Positions 8,814 through 23,214 of a stretch of 64,000 nucleotides of DNA are shown in pieces; the stretch's first letter is position 1; the number at the start of each line of letters is the position of its first letter. A program made the translations under genes and the position numbers. Origin of the DNA: Verrucomicrobiia bacterium (GTDB lineage: Bacteria; Verrucomicrobiota; Verrucomicrobiia; Opitutales; Cerasicoccaceae); assembly GCA_030432235.1 (NCBI GenBank), contig JAUIHT010000001.1, positions 992,001 through 1,056,000 of the forward strand, read 5' to 3'. The notes under the pieces are model-generated. The model saw only the letters and a list, made by a program, of their open reading frames with translations. It ran no database searches and was not told the DNA's origin.

Positions 8814-9228
8814 GGGGGAGTGAACTGGTGTCCGCGGGTTGGTAGATTTTGAAAATGTAAATGAGGTTAAAGATGAAAAGCGGGGCTAAATAGATGCCTG
8901 CCAGGTAGGGAAAACTTACAATGATAAAGAGTGATTTGCTGCGAAAAGGGAGGCAGAAAAACGCGATGATGACACCGATGGTTACCAGCGCGGTTGGTAT
9001 GGCGACCGAGTGGGCGAGACCGCCTTCGCTCAGGAATTGATAGTAAAAGCAGACAGATGCGGCGCCGAATAATGGAACCAGAACCATGCTCGTTCCCAAA
9101 AAGAAGGCTCCGTAGCGGAATCCTTTTGAGGATTCTTTGACTGCCAAGATGACACCAATAATAGGTCCGAGCAATATGCCACCTGCACCAAGTCCGGAAC
9201 CGAGGAATAATAGCGTTTGGTCTTCCAT
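8791..9228 (-). CDS. Hypothetical multi-pass membrane protein with overwritten C-terminus
   Basis: 145 residues with about four hydrophobic helices (for example GAGGILLGPIIGVILAV and SVAIPTALVTIGVIIAFFCL), so an inner-membrane protein. No family recognised. The final residues (SSLPPAAAPTS) are encoded by copy C of the cusA 3' end read in another frame, so the native C-terminus was probably lost when that copy joined. It lies between copies C and B of the cusA 3' end. The start ATG at 9228 directly opens the first hydrophobic region; no clear ribosome site is seen. It could be a decaying gene. Confidence 0.5.
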   Translation of the reverse strand: MEDQTLLFLGSGLGAGGILLGPIIGVILAVKESSKGFRYGAFFLGTSMVLVPLFGAASVCFYYQFLSEGGLAHSVAIPTALVTIGVIIAFFCLPFRSKSLFIIVSFPYLAGIYLAPLFIFNLIYIFKIYQPADTSSLPPAAAPTS

Positions 9229-9303
9229 GATTTATCTAGGTAGAGAGAAAACCACCCCGAGTAAACATGGATATCTTTCGCGGAGATTATTAATTAAATA
9301 CAG

Positions 9304-9485
9304 TTATCCTCTCACCCGTCTCTCCTTCAAAATACAATACAGGGTCGGGACGACAAACACCGTCACCACGGCTAACACATCCCCGCCGAAGCTGGGGATG
9401 GCCATGGGGATCATGACGTCGGAGCCGCGGACTGAAGACGTTAACACGGGCAGGAGGGCGAGGATGGTGGTGGCGATGGTCATCA
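9304..9485 (-). pseudogene. Copy B of the 3' end of cusA
   Basis: About 176 bases match the last ~58 codons of the efflux gene, encoding TIATTILALLPVLTSSVRGS and a tail ending CILKERRVRG. The match to the true copy (9999-10175) runs to the GGTCATCA at 9478-9485, which contains the stop codon of the small gene at 9483-9980. Differences such as GGDVLAV for GGMCLAV show it is diverging. The frame is open upstream for only a dozen unrelated codons. Confidence 0.85.
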
Positions 9486-9980
9486 GTTTGAAGCTAGATA
9501 AACAATAGTCGTTAACCAACTCCCAACTAGGATTAGAATAATTCCAAAACTAAATAAACCAATGGTAGGGGCACTTACTCCTGGAATCAAAACCGATTCA
9601 TCGGGGTTCACGGGGTTGACGTAGACTGGAATGATAGCACCTGGAGCATAGCGCGAAAGCTGCTCCAAGACTCTCTTACGGTTGCCGTGGCTTCGGTTTC
9701 CAAAGTACAAGTTTCGCCCCTTTCTCCATTCGTTCATAGCTTGGTATTCGTATCTTACATTGGCACTATAAGATGGAGCTGAAAGTGGTTGTACGATTTT
9801 TAGCAATGCAGGCCTAAGGTCGGAGCCTGAGTACATGTTTTCAACGACATACCCTTCGGTTTTATTCCATGATTTAGAAACATGACCCTTGAAGCCTTGC
9901 TTTACCGCAATGTACACACACGGGATCCCGCTAAGTGCGATAAAGATGAAAAAGTAAATAACTCCGTCAGATGTTTCCAT
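9483..9980 (-). CDS. DUF3592 domain protein, two membrane helices
   Basis: 165 residues. An N-terminal helix (VIYFFIFIALSGIPCVYIAV) and a C-terminal helix (IGLFSFGIILILVGSWLTTI) enclose a ~90-residue domain. That domain has the order TEGYVVEN...ANVRYEYQA...RYAPGAIIPVYVNPVNPDES, which fits DUF3592; its small beta-rich domain usually faces the periplasm (family knowledge). Function unknown. It sits between the true cusA 3' end and copy B, on the same strand, with its stop codon inside the first bases of copy B. This is the first of three [small gene + cusA 3' copy] modules. Confidence 0.75.
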   Translation of the reverse strand: METSDGVIYFFIFIALSGIPCVYIAVKQGFKGHVSKSWNKTEGYVVENMYSGSDLRPALLKIVQPLSAPSYSANVRYEYQAMNEWRKGRNLYFGNRSHGNRKRVLEQLSRYAPGAIIPVYVNPVNPDESVLIPGVSAPTIGLFSFGIILILVGSWLTTIVYLASN

Positions 9981-16844: not shown

Positions 16845-16970
16845 CCGCCACAGGCCGATGCCCACGAGCAGGCACAAGGCCGCGATGCCGATGAATGATA
16901 AAAGCTGCTTTCGGTTCATGAGTTCCGTACTGACACTAAGTCAATGGAACTCAGGGCACTTGTTCAAGCT
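16845..16970 (-). pseudogene. Copy of the 5' end and leader of cusB
   Basis: About 125 bases match 16155-16279. They include the dyad (16920-16952), the ATG (16919-16917) and about 23 codons reading MNRKQLLSFIGIAALCLLVG before the frame ends at the junction with the nested palindrome. The stretch from here to 17073 has no other gene. Confidence 0.85.
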
Positions 16971-17073
16971 TGGGTTGGGGGGCGGCATTGAGGGGTGTAG
17001 AGTAAGTTTTTCAAATACTAGAATATTATTTCAATGTAATCGAAAGCAGGATTTGAATATACTTAGAAACTGA

Positions 17074-17886
17074 CTAAACAGGCCACTCTGGTGTAGCGAC
17101 CTCATGAGTATCTGCATCGAATGCTAAAAACTTATTCCTTTCGTACGGTAGAAGAATTCTGCCGCCAAAAGCTATCGTTCTAGCTGCTTTGTTTGGCCAA
17201 TATATGTTATATGGCAATGTATTTAGATGCCTGTATACTTTATAGATTTGAGGCGGGCCGCCAATTGATGGCATTGATTGGTCTCTTATGAATTCGACAA
17301 GAACTTCAAAGGGCTCCATCGCCAATCCCTTGGCGCGCATTCTATTAGTATTCCTGAGTTTTTCGTATACGCAATATTTGGCTTTTTTTACATTATCACC
17401 AATGAATGAGAAGTATTTGTTTCCTCCCAGTCGTTTACGATGCATTGATGCTTCTCTCAGTACAAATGTACCTGATGATTTGTTAAAATTAAGCTCCCAA
17501 ATTTTGAAGCTCTCTAACCGCCATGAGTAACCTGCAAAGATAAATCTGGCTTGAGCAGGATCAGGTTGATCTATTCCTACGGGCAAGCTGGTTATGCTTT
17601 CCCACATTGAATTAAATATACGCAGAACATGCCCTTTAAGCTCTGTTAAATCTATAGAGCGATCAAGCAATTGTGGGTGCATTTTTATTGCAGTCTGCAG
17701 TTGCTGCATAAGTGGATACGCATCAGCAGTATCGCCAGCAAAAGCGATTAGTGAATCGCCTCGACCCAAATCAAATATCTTCGATCCGATATCCCATGCC
17801 CTTCCTCCATTAAGGCGAGAGTCACTAGCAACATATAGCTCTTGATGAGAGGCATATTGACGCACCCAAGCAGCAACTAATGTCAT
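17074..17886 (-). CDS. Predicted Ntn-hydrolase (proteasome/HslV-like fold) protein
   Basis: 270 residues. After Met1 comes Thr2, and the next blocks read LYVASDSRLNGG (Asp22) and WDIGSKIFDL (Lys36), then SLIAFAGDTADAYPLMQQL. This order (N-terminal Thr, an Asp about 20 residues on, a Lys about 14 further) resembles proteasome beta/HslV peptidases, where Thr1, Asp17 and Lys33 form the active site. I infer an N-terminal-nucleophile hydrolase that becomes active after Met removal. A later SFIGDNVKKA block may match the proteasome SGD region. The C-terminal ~100 residues are not recognised. Its start lies 9 bases after the stop of the nuclease-like gene, so the two form an operon. Coding DNA is A+T-richer than the efflux genes. 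No HslU-type ATPase is adjacent. Confidence 0.6.
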   Translation of the reverse strand: MTLVAAWVRQYASHQELYVASDSRLNGGRAWDIGSKIFDLGRGDSLIAFAGDTADAYPLMQQLQTAIKMHPQLLDRSIDLTELKGHVLRIFNSMWESITSLPVGIDQPDPAQARFIFAGYSWRLESFKIWELNFNKSSGTFVLREASMHRKRLGGNKYFSFIGDNVKKAKYCVYEKLRNTNRMRAKGLAMEPFEVLVEFIRDQSMPSIGGPPQIYKVYRHLNTLPYNIYWPNKAARTIAFGGRILLPYERNKFLAFDADTHEVATPEWPV

Positions 17887-17895
17887 CGATCTACC

Positions 17896-18522
17896 TTAAT
17901 CTTCATTTGAATATCGGCTAACATATACGTCGTCATTTTTAACATCCCAAAGATGACCACAACTACATTCAATCGATTGACCGACGCTGACAAACTCATG
18001 TAGCCCGCAATCCCAACACCAAATGAGAGCCTCTCGACAAGAGCGACATTGGCCAATAACAGCTAATGAGAACGGTTGATCTAGGCCATTGAAACAAGAG
18101 GCATCCGCTAGAATGCAATCTGCTAAACATTGTGGGCATATGCACCAATTGTCGGGTTCTAGTATATCTAAAGCATCTTCGATATCTAAAATCCGGAGAT
18201 CCAAATTAGCTGTGCTTGCCTTTATCTCCGCAGGCTCTGTCCAGCCGTTTAGGGATACAATGACCGCTTTGCATGCTTGAACAGCAGCAGCTAGTGCTAG
18301 TACGCTTTCGACTTCTTTAACGTCAATTTTGTCTTTATGAAACTTGGCATCTACTACGATTCGAACGACATGGCCTTTTGAGGCTATTTCTATTAATAAA
18401 TCTATTTGTCTCTTTTGCCCGGTATCCTTGTCTGGAATATATGCATTTCTTTTTACATCACCAATTCCTTCTGCTTTTTCATAAAGTAGAGCAACTGCTT
18501 CTTGGTATTCTTGCCAGTTCAT
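17896..18522 (-). CDS. Mrr-like PD-(D/E)xK nuclease with C-terminal zinc ribbons
   Basis: 208 residues from the ATG at 18522; a TTG two codons earlier is the alternative. The N-terminal ~115 residues look like a restriction-endonuclease fold: helix WQEYQEAVALLYEKAEG, then QIDLLIEI (Asp41), then RIVVDAKFH (Asp58-x-Lys60), then a helix VKEVESVLALAAAVQAC and a strand KAVIVS. This spacing suits the Mrr/PD-(D/E)xK superfamily. The C-terminal ~85 residues carry paired cysteines (CICPQC, CRSC, CWDC, CSCG), probably two zinc ribbons for DNA or RNA binding. It is the first gene of a two-gene operon with the Ntn-hydrolase-like gene. A defence role is inferred from fold, cargo-like context and composition, not shown. 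Confidence 0.65.
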   Translation of the reverse strand: MNWQEYQEAVALLYEKAEGIGDVKRNAYIPDKDTGQKRQIDLLIEIASKGHVVRIVVDAKFHKDKIDVKEVESVLALAAAVQACKAVIVSLNGWTEPAEIKASTANLDLRILDIEDALDILEPDNWCICPQCLADCILADASCFNGLDQPFSLAVIGQCRSCREALIWCWDCGLHEFVSVGQSIECSCGHLWDVKNDDVYVSRYSNED

Positions 18523-18586
18523 ACTCAAAAGGTGAAATTACGAATAACTACACCTTTGTTTGACTAGCAAGTATATTCCCCCCCCC

Positions 18587-18752
18587 TTACGCTGGCCTTT
18601 CTACGGACACCGTGTCGCTGCCTTTTTCGTTGCCTGTGGTTAGGACCACATAGACGCGGTAGAGGGCGGTGGTGCCTAGGGTGGTTAGGCCTTCGGTGGT
18701 GGTGAATGTGCGGGGGGCTTCGGGGGTGTTGGTGGCGACTACGCGCTCCTCG
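18587..18752 (-). pseudogene. C-terminal remnant of a secreted protein
   Basis: A minus-strand frame ending at the TAA at 18587 reads FTTTEGLTTLGTTALYRVYV then VLTTGNEKGSDTVSVERPA. It looks like the last beta-strands of a fibronectin/Ig-type domain at the end of a large exported protein. Upstream it runs into a CTGAGCTTGCCGAAGG repeat and no start is found. Confidence 0.4.
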
Positions 18753-19192: not shown

Positions 19193-19421
19193 CCGGCCTG
19201 AAGATTACGGTCCTCGGTCGTGGCCTCGCAGGTGCCGGGTAGCGGCTTCTCGACGATGGCGTAGGGACGATGCCCTTGCGGGCTCTAGGCTGGCTGGTCC
19301 CTGCTATAGCAAACTTATACGCTATCTTAACTCTATGTTAATACTGCGTCTGCTATACTGGCCTTCCTTCGTTGAGTCCTTCATTCACTGTTGCGCGCGG
19401 CGCGGCTCCAACCCTATCGGC

Positions 19422-20753
19422 ATGAAAAAACACCTTTTACCCGTATTGCTCTGTACACTCGCCGGCGCGGTAACGGCCCAAGCGGCGCTCAGCTTTTCTT
19501 TCGAAATGACCGTGTTAGTGGCCGAGGGGGACGCCTTTGCGGTGGACGACACCGTCATCGTGACCTTAACGACGAACAGCGACCTGGGCACGGCCGACAC
19601 CCAGACCTCGGATGATATTGAGTGGTTTTACTCCTTGCTCGGGAGCAGCGTGTGGTCCGAGGTGACCATCACGGATGGTGATGGCAATACGCTGACCACG
19701 GGGTCGTTTGAGGAAAGCGGTCGAGCGTATGAGTGGCTGGAGGCGAAAGACTCGACGGTGACTTTACAGGTGGGCGCGAAATCCACCAGCTATGACGACA
19801 ATACGGGCCTGACGATCGGGGATGAAGTGGTGAGTCGCATATACTCGAGCCTGCTGACGAGTGACCTGAGCGTCGACTTTGATCAGGATGATGACAGCGC
19901 CACGGTGGACGGCACCTTCACGACGGGCACCTACAGCATAACCTATGATGGAGGTGAAGACCCGTATGGCTATATGCTGTTCACCCTGTACGACGATTCA
20001 TCGAATGAGTACACCTACAGCGCGCAGGTCAGCACGCTGACCATCAGTTCGGCCGTGACCGGCGCCCTGGAAGACTGGGCCTACCTGGCCTACGACCCCT
20101 GGCATTACTTGGCAGAGGCCAAGACCTGGGCCTACCACTTCTTTTATGATGACGACGAGTACTACTATCTGCTTGCGCAGGGCACCTATGTTTTACTGAG
20201 GAAGAGAAGCGATAATGCCCCGGACTCCCTGGACGGTCTGGAGCTCTCCTTGCCCATGCCGGACCTGACAGACCTGGTAATCGACGGTACGTCCGTGACC
20301 TTCTACTTTACCGATACATCCGTCGCCAACGGTATCATTGCCGTGGAGTCGAATGGAATCAAAGAGCAGTTGTCCGCCTATACTTATGACTATGTTAAAT
20401 TAACGAAGGATATTGGATTACTTTCCCTGTCCCTTACAGAAACGGTCCAGGGTAGTAGTCTTTCGGGTGACAATTATATCGAGCTAGGCTACCTGCTGGC
20501 CTTCGATGGTTTTGATAGCGGCTACTCTTATGGTCTGTATGTTCGAGACGATTATGCACCTGATCTGGACAAACTTTTTTTAGAACAATTAAAGCCCGAT
20601 ATTATGGAATGCATTGCAGAGGAGTCCAGCATAGCGTCGGCCCTGGGATGTTTCTATGACTCTTTTATTGCGGTGGAAAAGTCCTTCGATAGCTTCCTGG
20701 AGGATCATGGCAGTTTCATTGGTGGCTTCATCTGCGCGGAATCCAGTGAGTGA
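19422..20753 (+). CDS. Hypothetical secreted protein
   Basis: 443 residues from the ATG at 19422, chosen because it opens a clear signal peptide (MKKHLLPVLLCTLAGAVTAQ then A); the frame is open back to 19335. The mature part begins LSFSFEMTVLVAEGDAF and is rich in Asp, Thr, Ser and Tyr with beta-strand character (TVIVTLTTNSDLGTADTQTS), including an SYSLYVRDDY-like region. No enzyme motif, PEP-CTERM tail or membrane helix is seen. It may be a surface or extracellular beta-rich protein. It lies on the opposite strand to the efflux genes, between tolC and the 21-bp array, tail-to-tail with tolC. Confidence 0.65.
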   Translation: MKKHLLPVLLCTLAGAVTAQAALSFSFEMTVLVAEGDAFAVDDTVIVTLTTNSDLGTADTQTSDDIEWFYSLLGSSVWSEVTITDGDGNTLTTGSFEESGRAYEWLEAKDSTVTLQVGAKSTSYDDNTGLTIGDEVVSRIYSSLLTSDLSVDFDQDDDSATVDGTFTTGTYSITYDGGEDPYGYMLFTLYDDSSNEYTYSAQVSTLTISSAVTGALEDWAYLAYDPWHYLAEAKTWAYHFFYDDDEYYYLLAQGTYVLLRKRSDNAPDSLDGLELSLPMPDLTDLVIDGTSVTFYFTDTSVANGIIAVESNGIKEQLSAYTYDYVKLTKDIGLLSLSLTETVQGSSLSGDNYIELGYLLAFDGFDSGYSYGLYVRDDYAPDLDKLFLEQLKPDIMECIAEESSIASALGCFYDSFIAVEKSFDSFLEDHGSFIGGFICAESSE

Positions 20754-22445: not shown

Positions 22446-22452
22446 GTTGGAC

Positions 22453-23214
22453 ATGGTGTCGATAGTCATTGACAGTAAACAAGGAGAACATGGATTGAGT
22501 AGTATGTTTACTCAGTCTGTTGTAGAGCGCCTCGATTACTATGTTTATTTTCTGCAAGATCCCCGCACAAATCGTGTCTTTTATATTGGTAAGGGTATAG
22601 GTAATCGTATTTACGATCATTTAAATTGTGCGGTTGAGACGGAAGTGCTTTCAGTCAAGCTGGATACTATCCGTGAAATTAGGTCAGCAGGAAAAGAAGT
22701 TATTCATTACGTTGTCCGGCATGGCCTAAGTGAGGAAGCCGCCTTCGAAGTGGAAGCAGCACTAATTGATTTCGTTGGTATTGAAGGCCTCTCGAATATT
22801 CAGGGAGGACATCATTCAGGAGATTTTGGGATAAAGAGGGCTGAAGAAATTTCAGCCATGTACGATGCAGAACCATTTAGTACGAATGAGTCGGTGCTAC
22901 TGATTAATCTCAACCGACTGTTTAATAGACGGATGAGTCCTAATGAGCTTTATGAGGCAACGCGTAAAGCTTGGGTTATTGGGCCTCGACGAGAAAACGC
23001 AAGATACGCCATAGCGACCTACCGGGGACTCACCCGAGAAGTTTATAAAATCAATTTTTGGTTTCCAATTAATGAAGAAACAAAACCGTCCCGGCGTTGG
23101 GGGTTTGATGGTGAGTTGGCTGAGCCTAAAATACGGGAAGAATTGTCTTATAAATCAATACAAGGTCTATTTGAGCGAGGCGCAGCAAATCCAATACGCT
23201 ATATAAATTGCTAA
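22453..23214 (+). CDS. GIY-YIG nuclease domain protein (LEM-3-like)
   Basis: 253 residues from the first ATG; a TTG two codons earlier or an ATG at 22504 are other possible starts. The N-terminal domain has YYVYFLQDP (GIY position), VFYIGKG (YIG position), GNRIYDHL (conserved Arg) and EAALID (metal-binding Glu), the order of LEM-3-like GIY-YIG endonucleases. The C-terminal ~130 residues (LINLNRLFNRRMSPNELYEA, then a WVIGPRRENARYAIATYRG block) form a second domain that I do not name. DNA is distinctly A+T-rich and the gene sits alone behind repeat DNA. It may be an accessory defence or DNA-repair nuclease, by inference. Confidence 0.75.
   Translation: MVSIVIDSKQGEHGLSSMFTQSVVERLDYYVYFLQDPRTNRVFYIGKGIGNRIYDHLNCAVETEVLSVKLDTIREIRSAGKEVIHYVVRHGLSEEAAFEVEAALIDFVGIEGLSNIQGGHHSGDFGIKRAEEISAMYDAEPFSTNESVLLINLNRLFNRRMSPNELYEATRKAWVIGPRRENARYAIATYRGLTREVYKINFWFPINEETKPSRRWGFDGELAEPKIREELSYKSIQGLFERGAANPIRYINC

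Follow-up and report, generated by a model that had tools for sequence, protein, structure and literature searches.

The proteasome-like family was surveyed in 2021 by Fuchs, Alva and Lupas, who brought together HslV, Anbu, BPH, connectase and 22 uncharacterised clusters, the last including the phage-borne PPH and AAH (PMC8665760). In the part of that survey drawn on here, the clusters outside proteasome beta and HslV lack a propeptide, connectase is described as a monomeric protein ligase, and no genomic context suggesting a function is reported for the uncharacterised clusters, relatives of the proteasome that occur in many bacteria (PMC8665760). Our literature search, for which this survey was the sole relevant source, returned no link of proteasome-like or other Ntn proteins to phage defence, and a search by term through the main texts of two defence papers found no mention of the proteasome.

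Here we describe a member of this broad family encoded in a 64,000-nucleotide stretch of DNA (the window) from a Verrucomicrobiia bacterium, where its gene lies directly downstream of a nuclease gene. The first-pass annotation of the window had proposed that the two genes form a new two-gene system, in which a self-processed peptidase activates, removes or releases the nuclease, perhaps in phage defence. We consider it probable that the second gene encodes a defence-associated, stand-alone, proteasome-like threonine hydrolase that was co-inserted with an unrelated Mrr-type nuclease, the two being independent mobile genes. The claimed pair is accordingly not the new element; as far as our searches extend, what is new is that a proteasome-like gene, lone and mobile, is associated with defence.

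Both genes are real and lie on the minus strand, the nuclease gene at positions 17896–18522 (208 amino acids) and the gene of the predicted Ntn hydrolase at 17074–17886 (270 amino acids, starting Met-Thr and lacking a propeptide), with a spacer of 9 bases between them (17887–17895). They occupy an AT-rich islet of foreign composition, delimited by GC and third-position GC at 16977–18600 with approximate edges. The GC fraction of the pair is 0.417, compared with 0.591 across the window, and third-position GC is 0.31 in the nuclease gene and 0.35 in the Ntn gene, compared with 0.85 in the efflux genes cusB and tolC. The islet interrupts the efflux operon: tolC and cusB are 0–8 bases apart, and followed by cusA, in all four relatives examined, whereas the gap in the window is 4.6 kb, and cusB itself is present in nine of nine genomes of the same family. 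The foreign origin of the pair and its insertion into a split efflux operon, both read from the sequence in the first-pass annotation, are thus borne out. Because the tolC–cusB interval additionally contains a 71-amino-acid ORF, a gene on the opposite strand (19335–20753) and a truncated second copy of the start of cusB with its leader, the pair is not the sole insertion. The duplicate (16850–16976, minus strand; 88 nucleotides at 89% identity) adjoins the islet, whose sequence diverges from the duplicated leader near 16976, and it appears as a trace of the insertion history. A PD-T4-3-type defence gene (22447–23214, plus strand; PADLOC PD-T4-3, 2.4e-56) with a third-position GC of 0.35 lies 4 kb from the pair, beyond tolC, and forms a second AT-rich islet at the same efflux operon. 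The site looks like an insertion hot spot.

How close is the second gene product to the described proteasome-like proteins? Against the Pfam Proteasome profile it gives an E-value of only 0.032, under the cut-off. An AlphaFold model built from an alignment of 19 family sequences (pLDDT 90.2, pTM 0.90) nonetheless has the proteasome beta fold, and each of the 1000 best chains returned by Foldseek aligns with a Z-score of at least 8. Among the best 50 of these 1000 chains, Z ranges from 18.1 to 19.8, with beta-6-type 20S subunits at the top and Anbu reaching 18.6. The aligned range begins at residue 2 of the model and residue 1 of the chain in 1j2q_H, 6bdf_1, 5le5_b and 5nyw_J (Anbu), placing residue 2 of the predicted structure at the position of the proteasomal Thr1. 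The proteasome-type Ntn fold that the first-pass annotation had suspected from Met-Thr, Asp22 and Lys36 is therefore well supported by prediction, and the residues themselves, Thr2, Asp22 and Lys36, are where it had placed them; Arg24 is in place too.

The active-site set of the proteasome comprises Thr1, Asp17, Lys33 and the oxyanion Gly47 in the part of the 2021 survey used here (PMC8665760). Across the 31 distinct, intact members of the family alignment, Thr2, Asp22, Lys36 and Gly51 show no substitution, and Arg24 is conserved in 30 of the 31. The fold and this invariance support a correspondence of the four residues with the proteasomal set, the equivalence of Asp22, Lys36 and Gly51 resting on sequence alignment to HslV. 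Each sequence in this alignment was taken to begin one residue ahead of the invariant threonine, where seven of the 31 members have GTG or TTG and several loci offer an in-frame start further upstream; the broken or incomplete copies L003, L007, L008, L027, L029 and L030 and one duplicate are omitted. The Met-Thr start suggests that methionine aminopeptidase would remove Met1 and leave Thr2 as the N-terminal nucleophile of what would be a 20S-type catalytic site.

HslV has the same fold as the Ntn protein, its active-site columns align with those of the Ntn family, and it is the sole family in the PDB reached by the Ntn profile at an E-value of 0.1 (best 0.003). However, the Ntn protein scores 17.3 bits against a cut-off of 157.75 for the HslV model TIGR03692, carries SDSR in place of GDGQ, and is about 90 residues longer; on account of the score, far under the cut-off, we reject membership in HslV. 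The D-S-R motif is as in the proteasome subunit beta5. Membership in Anbu is rejected as well, despite the Z-score of 18.6, since the model lacks a helix of four or more residues beyond residue 201 and so has no counterpart of the C-terminal, ring-layer-pairing helix H5 of Anbu. The 20S beta subunits share the Ntn fold up to the highest Z-score, but the protein described here lacks a propeptide and is encoded by a single gene in mobile elements with changing neighbours. Among PHROGs, four families are hit, each by one of the 19 members used (best 5.9e-4), one of them being 'peptidase HslV family' at 0.012. With the family of the 2021 survey, as far as its text is used here, the protein has in common the proteasome beta fold, the catalytic set, the absence of a propeptide and the occurrence in phages, and differs in being a lone mobile gene with defence neighbours; it may belong to one of the 22 uncharacterised clusters (PMC8665760).

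The upstream gene encodes, as first annotated, a protein with an Mrr-like PD-(D/E)xK core and Cys pairs. It matches Pfam Mrr_cat at 1e-9 (39 bits, the cut-off being 21), and its catalytic core, residues 1–115, contains Asp41 and Asp58-x-Lys60, as expected for an Mrr-type nuclease. Classical Mrr has an N-terminal winged helix, which the window nuclease lacks: its core begins at residue 1 and is followed by a Cys-rich C-terminal part, a layout shared with its relative in locus L064 (39% identity over 132 amino acids, with Cys pairs of its own as judged by eye). The cysteines lie at positions 84, 127/129/132/136, 143, 159/162, 169/172 and 186/188, and the Cys-rich part probably forms zinc ribbons. 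A structure model from the single sequence was poor (pLDDT 41.5), and the nuclease matches one PDC-S02 model weakly (8.4e-6). Relatives are sparse: matches occur in three of 288 genomes of the same phylum (the window's own and two over the Mrr core only) and in five of 339 genomes of a further sample. No relative was found in the 'phages' collection (E 0.01) or among plasmids, nor did peptide patterns recover one from viral contigs. Most likely the nuclease works alone, as an Mrr-type restriction factor that would cleave DNA, with the Cys-rich part probably helping recognition. A Cys-rich Mrr nuclease is also encoded at L073:3953–11578 in an island on one strand, together with HNH-like, GHKL-type and receiver-like proteins and a cytosine methyltransferase; these names were given by eye except for the methyltransferase, which was identified with PADLOC.

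The case for a two-gene system rests on the 9-base gap, the shared strand and the shared foreign composition, and it would predict that homologues of the two genes travel together. The survey of homologues speaks against this claim: as far as it extends, the pairing does not recur, and the first-pass annotation had itself named a lack of co-occurrence as a refuting result. Nuclease matches were found in none of 18 Ntn-carrying genomes, in a search that had no positive control of its own, though the query proved able to match in five of the 339 genomes mentioned above, and a local profile of the nuclease core detected no Mrr-type ORF beside the Ntn gene in any of 35 other distinct loci. The profile recovers left-out members at 2e-25 to 3e-30, and the scan covered 1982 ORFs in 42 loci, equivalent to the 35 distinct ones, 32 of which have at least 1.4 kb of upstream sequence; flanks are short at several loci (upstream below 500 bases in L023, L030 and L069), and ORFs at contig edges were not counted. 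A single Mrr-like ORF occurs in L021, 7 kb from the Ntn gene. The nearest Ntn relatives, L012 (63% identity) and L002 (59%), have different upstream genes. From the side of the nuclease, the best relative with a Cys-rich tail, L064, sits in an island that has a cytosine methyltransferase and no Ntn gene, and the island with the nuclease relative at L073 has no Ntn gene either; the genome of L064 (G413) does carry both a nuclease relative and an Ntn member, on different contigs.

One locus might be thought to offer a variant of the arrangement, since in L026 (Arthrobacter ruber) a different nuclease-type protein, of the PDC-S02 type, is encoded 1 kb downstream of the Ntn gene, and the window nuclease has its own weak match to a PDC-S02 model. 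We take this protein to be a DUF1016/YhcG-like PD-(D/E)xK protein. It is unrelated to the window nuclease by sequence (E 28), and the local nuclease-core profile finds nothing in it. Because the PDC-S02 family occurs in five of 20 genomes with Ntn loci, its presence in this genome is not special. The observation refers to L026:11851–13053 and L109, with a near-equal second match elsewhere in the same genome (G368:C8). Pairing with an Mrr-type nuclease is seen once, and for the loci surveyed we reject a conserved two-gene system; that the nuclease is controlled by the Ntn peptidase even in the window, in any of the ways proposed, we regard as quite improbable. With no co-occurrence seen elsewhere, the most likely account of the window pair is that two mobile genes came together by chance; at most, they could be partners at this site. 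Such a local partnership is conceivable because the two genes are probably co-transcribed; promoter and terminator scans at the pair gave values inside the shuffle range. More generally, that two genes adjoin in one genome says little about whether they form a system.

The distribution of the Ntn gene fits our preferred reading of it as an independent, mobile gene. It is found in one of 288 genomes of the same phylum, the window's own, while the family extends to 18 loci in genomes (one a fragment), nine records in the plasmid collection and five distinct loci in viral contigs. One of the plasmid records is a 4.9-Mb E. coli record and another, H9, represents a divergent branch with four further records in that collection. 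The viral loci were found with alignment queries; the window protein alone retrieved no relatives in the viral contigs, and there were none in the 'phages' collection (E 0.01). In a Pseudomonadota sample, 36 of 398 genomes matched at 1e-3, five of them with full members (E below 1e-80; two already known), and of 15 weaker matches that were extracted, 13 are HslV by motif and two belong to a sister branch. This branch (L010:6408–8834, L047 and L055) has the Met-Thr start and a TDSR or SDSR motif, and in L010 its gene follows, after 34 bases, a gene for a 519-amino-acid protein without a Pfam or PADLOC match. The family occurs in two of 296 genomes in an Actinomycetota sample and in two of 247 in a Bacteroidota sample, one in each case being the sample's centre. 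In E. coli, a chromosomal copy with at least 99% identity is present in 126 of 5426 genomes; in two E. coli records its neighbour is a short integrase gene, and the annotated Ntn gene is itself short. The reading frame is broken in E. coli L007, in Rhizobium L008 and in one Klebsiella copy (L003), so the E. coli gene may have decayed. The Klebsiella gene as query found no match among the E. coli genomes.

Several loci indicate that the gene travels by itself. In L070 the lone Ntn gene (8929–9792) lies between two attC-like sites, recognised by eye, as an integron cassette would; the array contains 19–22 attC-like repeats, and the two flanking sites have fold z-scores of −1.8 and −3.5. Several cassette stretches are present twice within this integron-like array (L070:1–18501). 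In the related prophages L011 and L031 the gene occupies the same slot among tail genes, with two flanking proteins that are 71% and 81% identical against 36% for the Ntn protein, as would be expected, on these sequences, of exchangeable cargo. A structural role in the phage was considered and is rejected, given this divergence within a conserved slot and the presence of the family outside phages. In L074 the gene has hsdR on one side and hsdS on the other, inside a type I restriction locus. The Ntn gene therefore moves alone, as an integron cassette, as prophage cargo, on plasmids and within a type I restriction locus.

A gene that travels alone is also what one would expect of a self-sufficient enzyme on this fold, for instance one that ligates a specific protein or acts as an amidase on small molecules and has its role outside conflict with phages, and connectase provides the example of a monomeric, proteasome-like ligase in the part of the 2021 survey used here (PMC8665760). 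We give this explanation very little credence: the first helix pair, which according to the same part of the survey is absent from connectase (PMC8665760), is present in the Ntn model, and the gene keeps company with defence systems.

This company is the principal evidence for a link to phage defence, which the first-pass annotation had offered as a possibility for the pair and which we find for the Ntn gene by its neighbourhood. Pooled over 20 loci, the 75 ORFs neighbouring the gene hit 175 PADLOC families at 1e-10, and the 73 control ORFs of 19 regions match four (best 3e-37), a contrast that is exaggerated because families are not proteins and one protein can match dozens of PADLOC models; the named proteins are the safer measure. 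Neighbours were the nearest ORFs of 150 amino acids or more, no more than four per locus, chosen under a longest-ORF rule, which admits some false ORFs to both sets. Test and control sets share 18 genomes, with G371 and G413 in the test set only and G358 in the control set only, and 15 of 20 control regions begin at base 1 of contig 2, one region of 375 bases having yielded no ORF. Among the neighbour matches listed (25 of the 175 families), the best are Drt1a (E 0), HamB (2e-208) and HerA (6e-167), followed by PDC-S02 (8e-143), type I specificity (3e-98) and AbiEii (2e-97).

By locus, PADLOC names GajA and GajB in L008 (a strong match) and in L005 (a divergent one), HamB in L025, 77 bases upstream of the Ntn gene, Drt1a in L029, a locus with a truncated Ntn gene, AbiEi/AbiEii in L071, AbiJ in L021, HsdRMS in L074, LeoA/LeoBC in L002, HerA in L020, a TIR protein in L028, a Ppl-like match in L004 and an MkoB/DrmC-like match in L022. 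In total, 12 of the 35 other loci have a PADLOC match of 1e-10 or better near the Ntn gene, or 13 with the PDC-S02 protein of L026, counts that cover a chosen part of the neighbours. Sixteen neighbours scanned individually, in L005, L010, L012, L013, L019, L020, L022, L024, L025, L028, L069 and L071, gave no PADLOC match. The neighbourhood is an association and not a function, and such islands gather non-defence cargo too.

An opposite role in the same conflict has to be weighed. The Ntn protein could be cargo that protects a mobile element or tunes the host; its substrate might, for instance, be a host regulator or a restriction protein that it degrades. Restriction alleviation by ClpXP provides a precedent, and the gene inside the type I restriction locus of L074 would fit such proteolytic control of restriction; the plasmids, prophages and integron array that carry the gene fit a role as cargo. 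We nevertheless think an anti-defence function unlikely, as the neighbourhood is enriched in many kinds of defence systems.

For the defence-associated hydrolase that we favour, the lone-gene contexts suggest an enzyme that would cleave or transpeptidate a specific protein with no dedicated partner gene, and the neighbours suggest that its activity may aid the carrier in conflict with phages or mobile elements. The absence of a fixed partner means that the neighbours give no hint at the target. We speculate, more tentatively, that the gene constitutes a one-gene anti-phage defence, a free-standing proteasome-like threonine peptidase that would act as an infection-activated 'mini-proteasome' and whose gene would pass in cassette form between defence islands, prophages and integrons; this we hold to be a possibility worth pursuing rather than the expected outcome. 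A mobile, partnerless Ntn gene near Gabija, Hachiman, DRT, AbiE, AbiJ and type I restriction systems raises the hypothesis that proteasome-type proteolysis can serve as an immune weapon.

Two further loci stand out in their surroundings. In L015:2809–9322, on a contig of a Rhodobacteraceae metagenome-assembled genome, the Ntn gene lies inside what appears by eye to be the ribosomal spc operon (secY, L15, S8, S14), a placement that either an insertion or a fault in the assembly might explain. Near distant Ntn members, L004:9477–12185 and L010:10672–13395 encode homologous 900-amino-acid proteins with 32% identity over 881 amino acids, the longest match between neighbours outside the related prophages.
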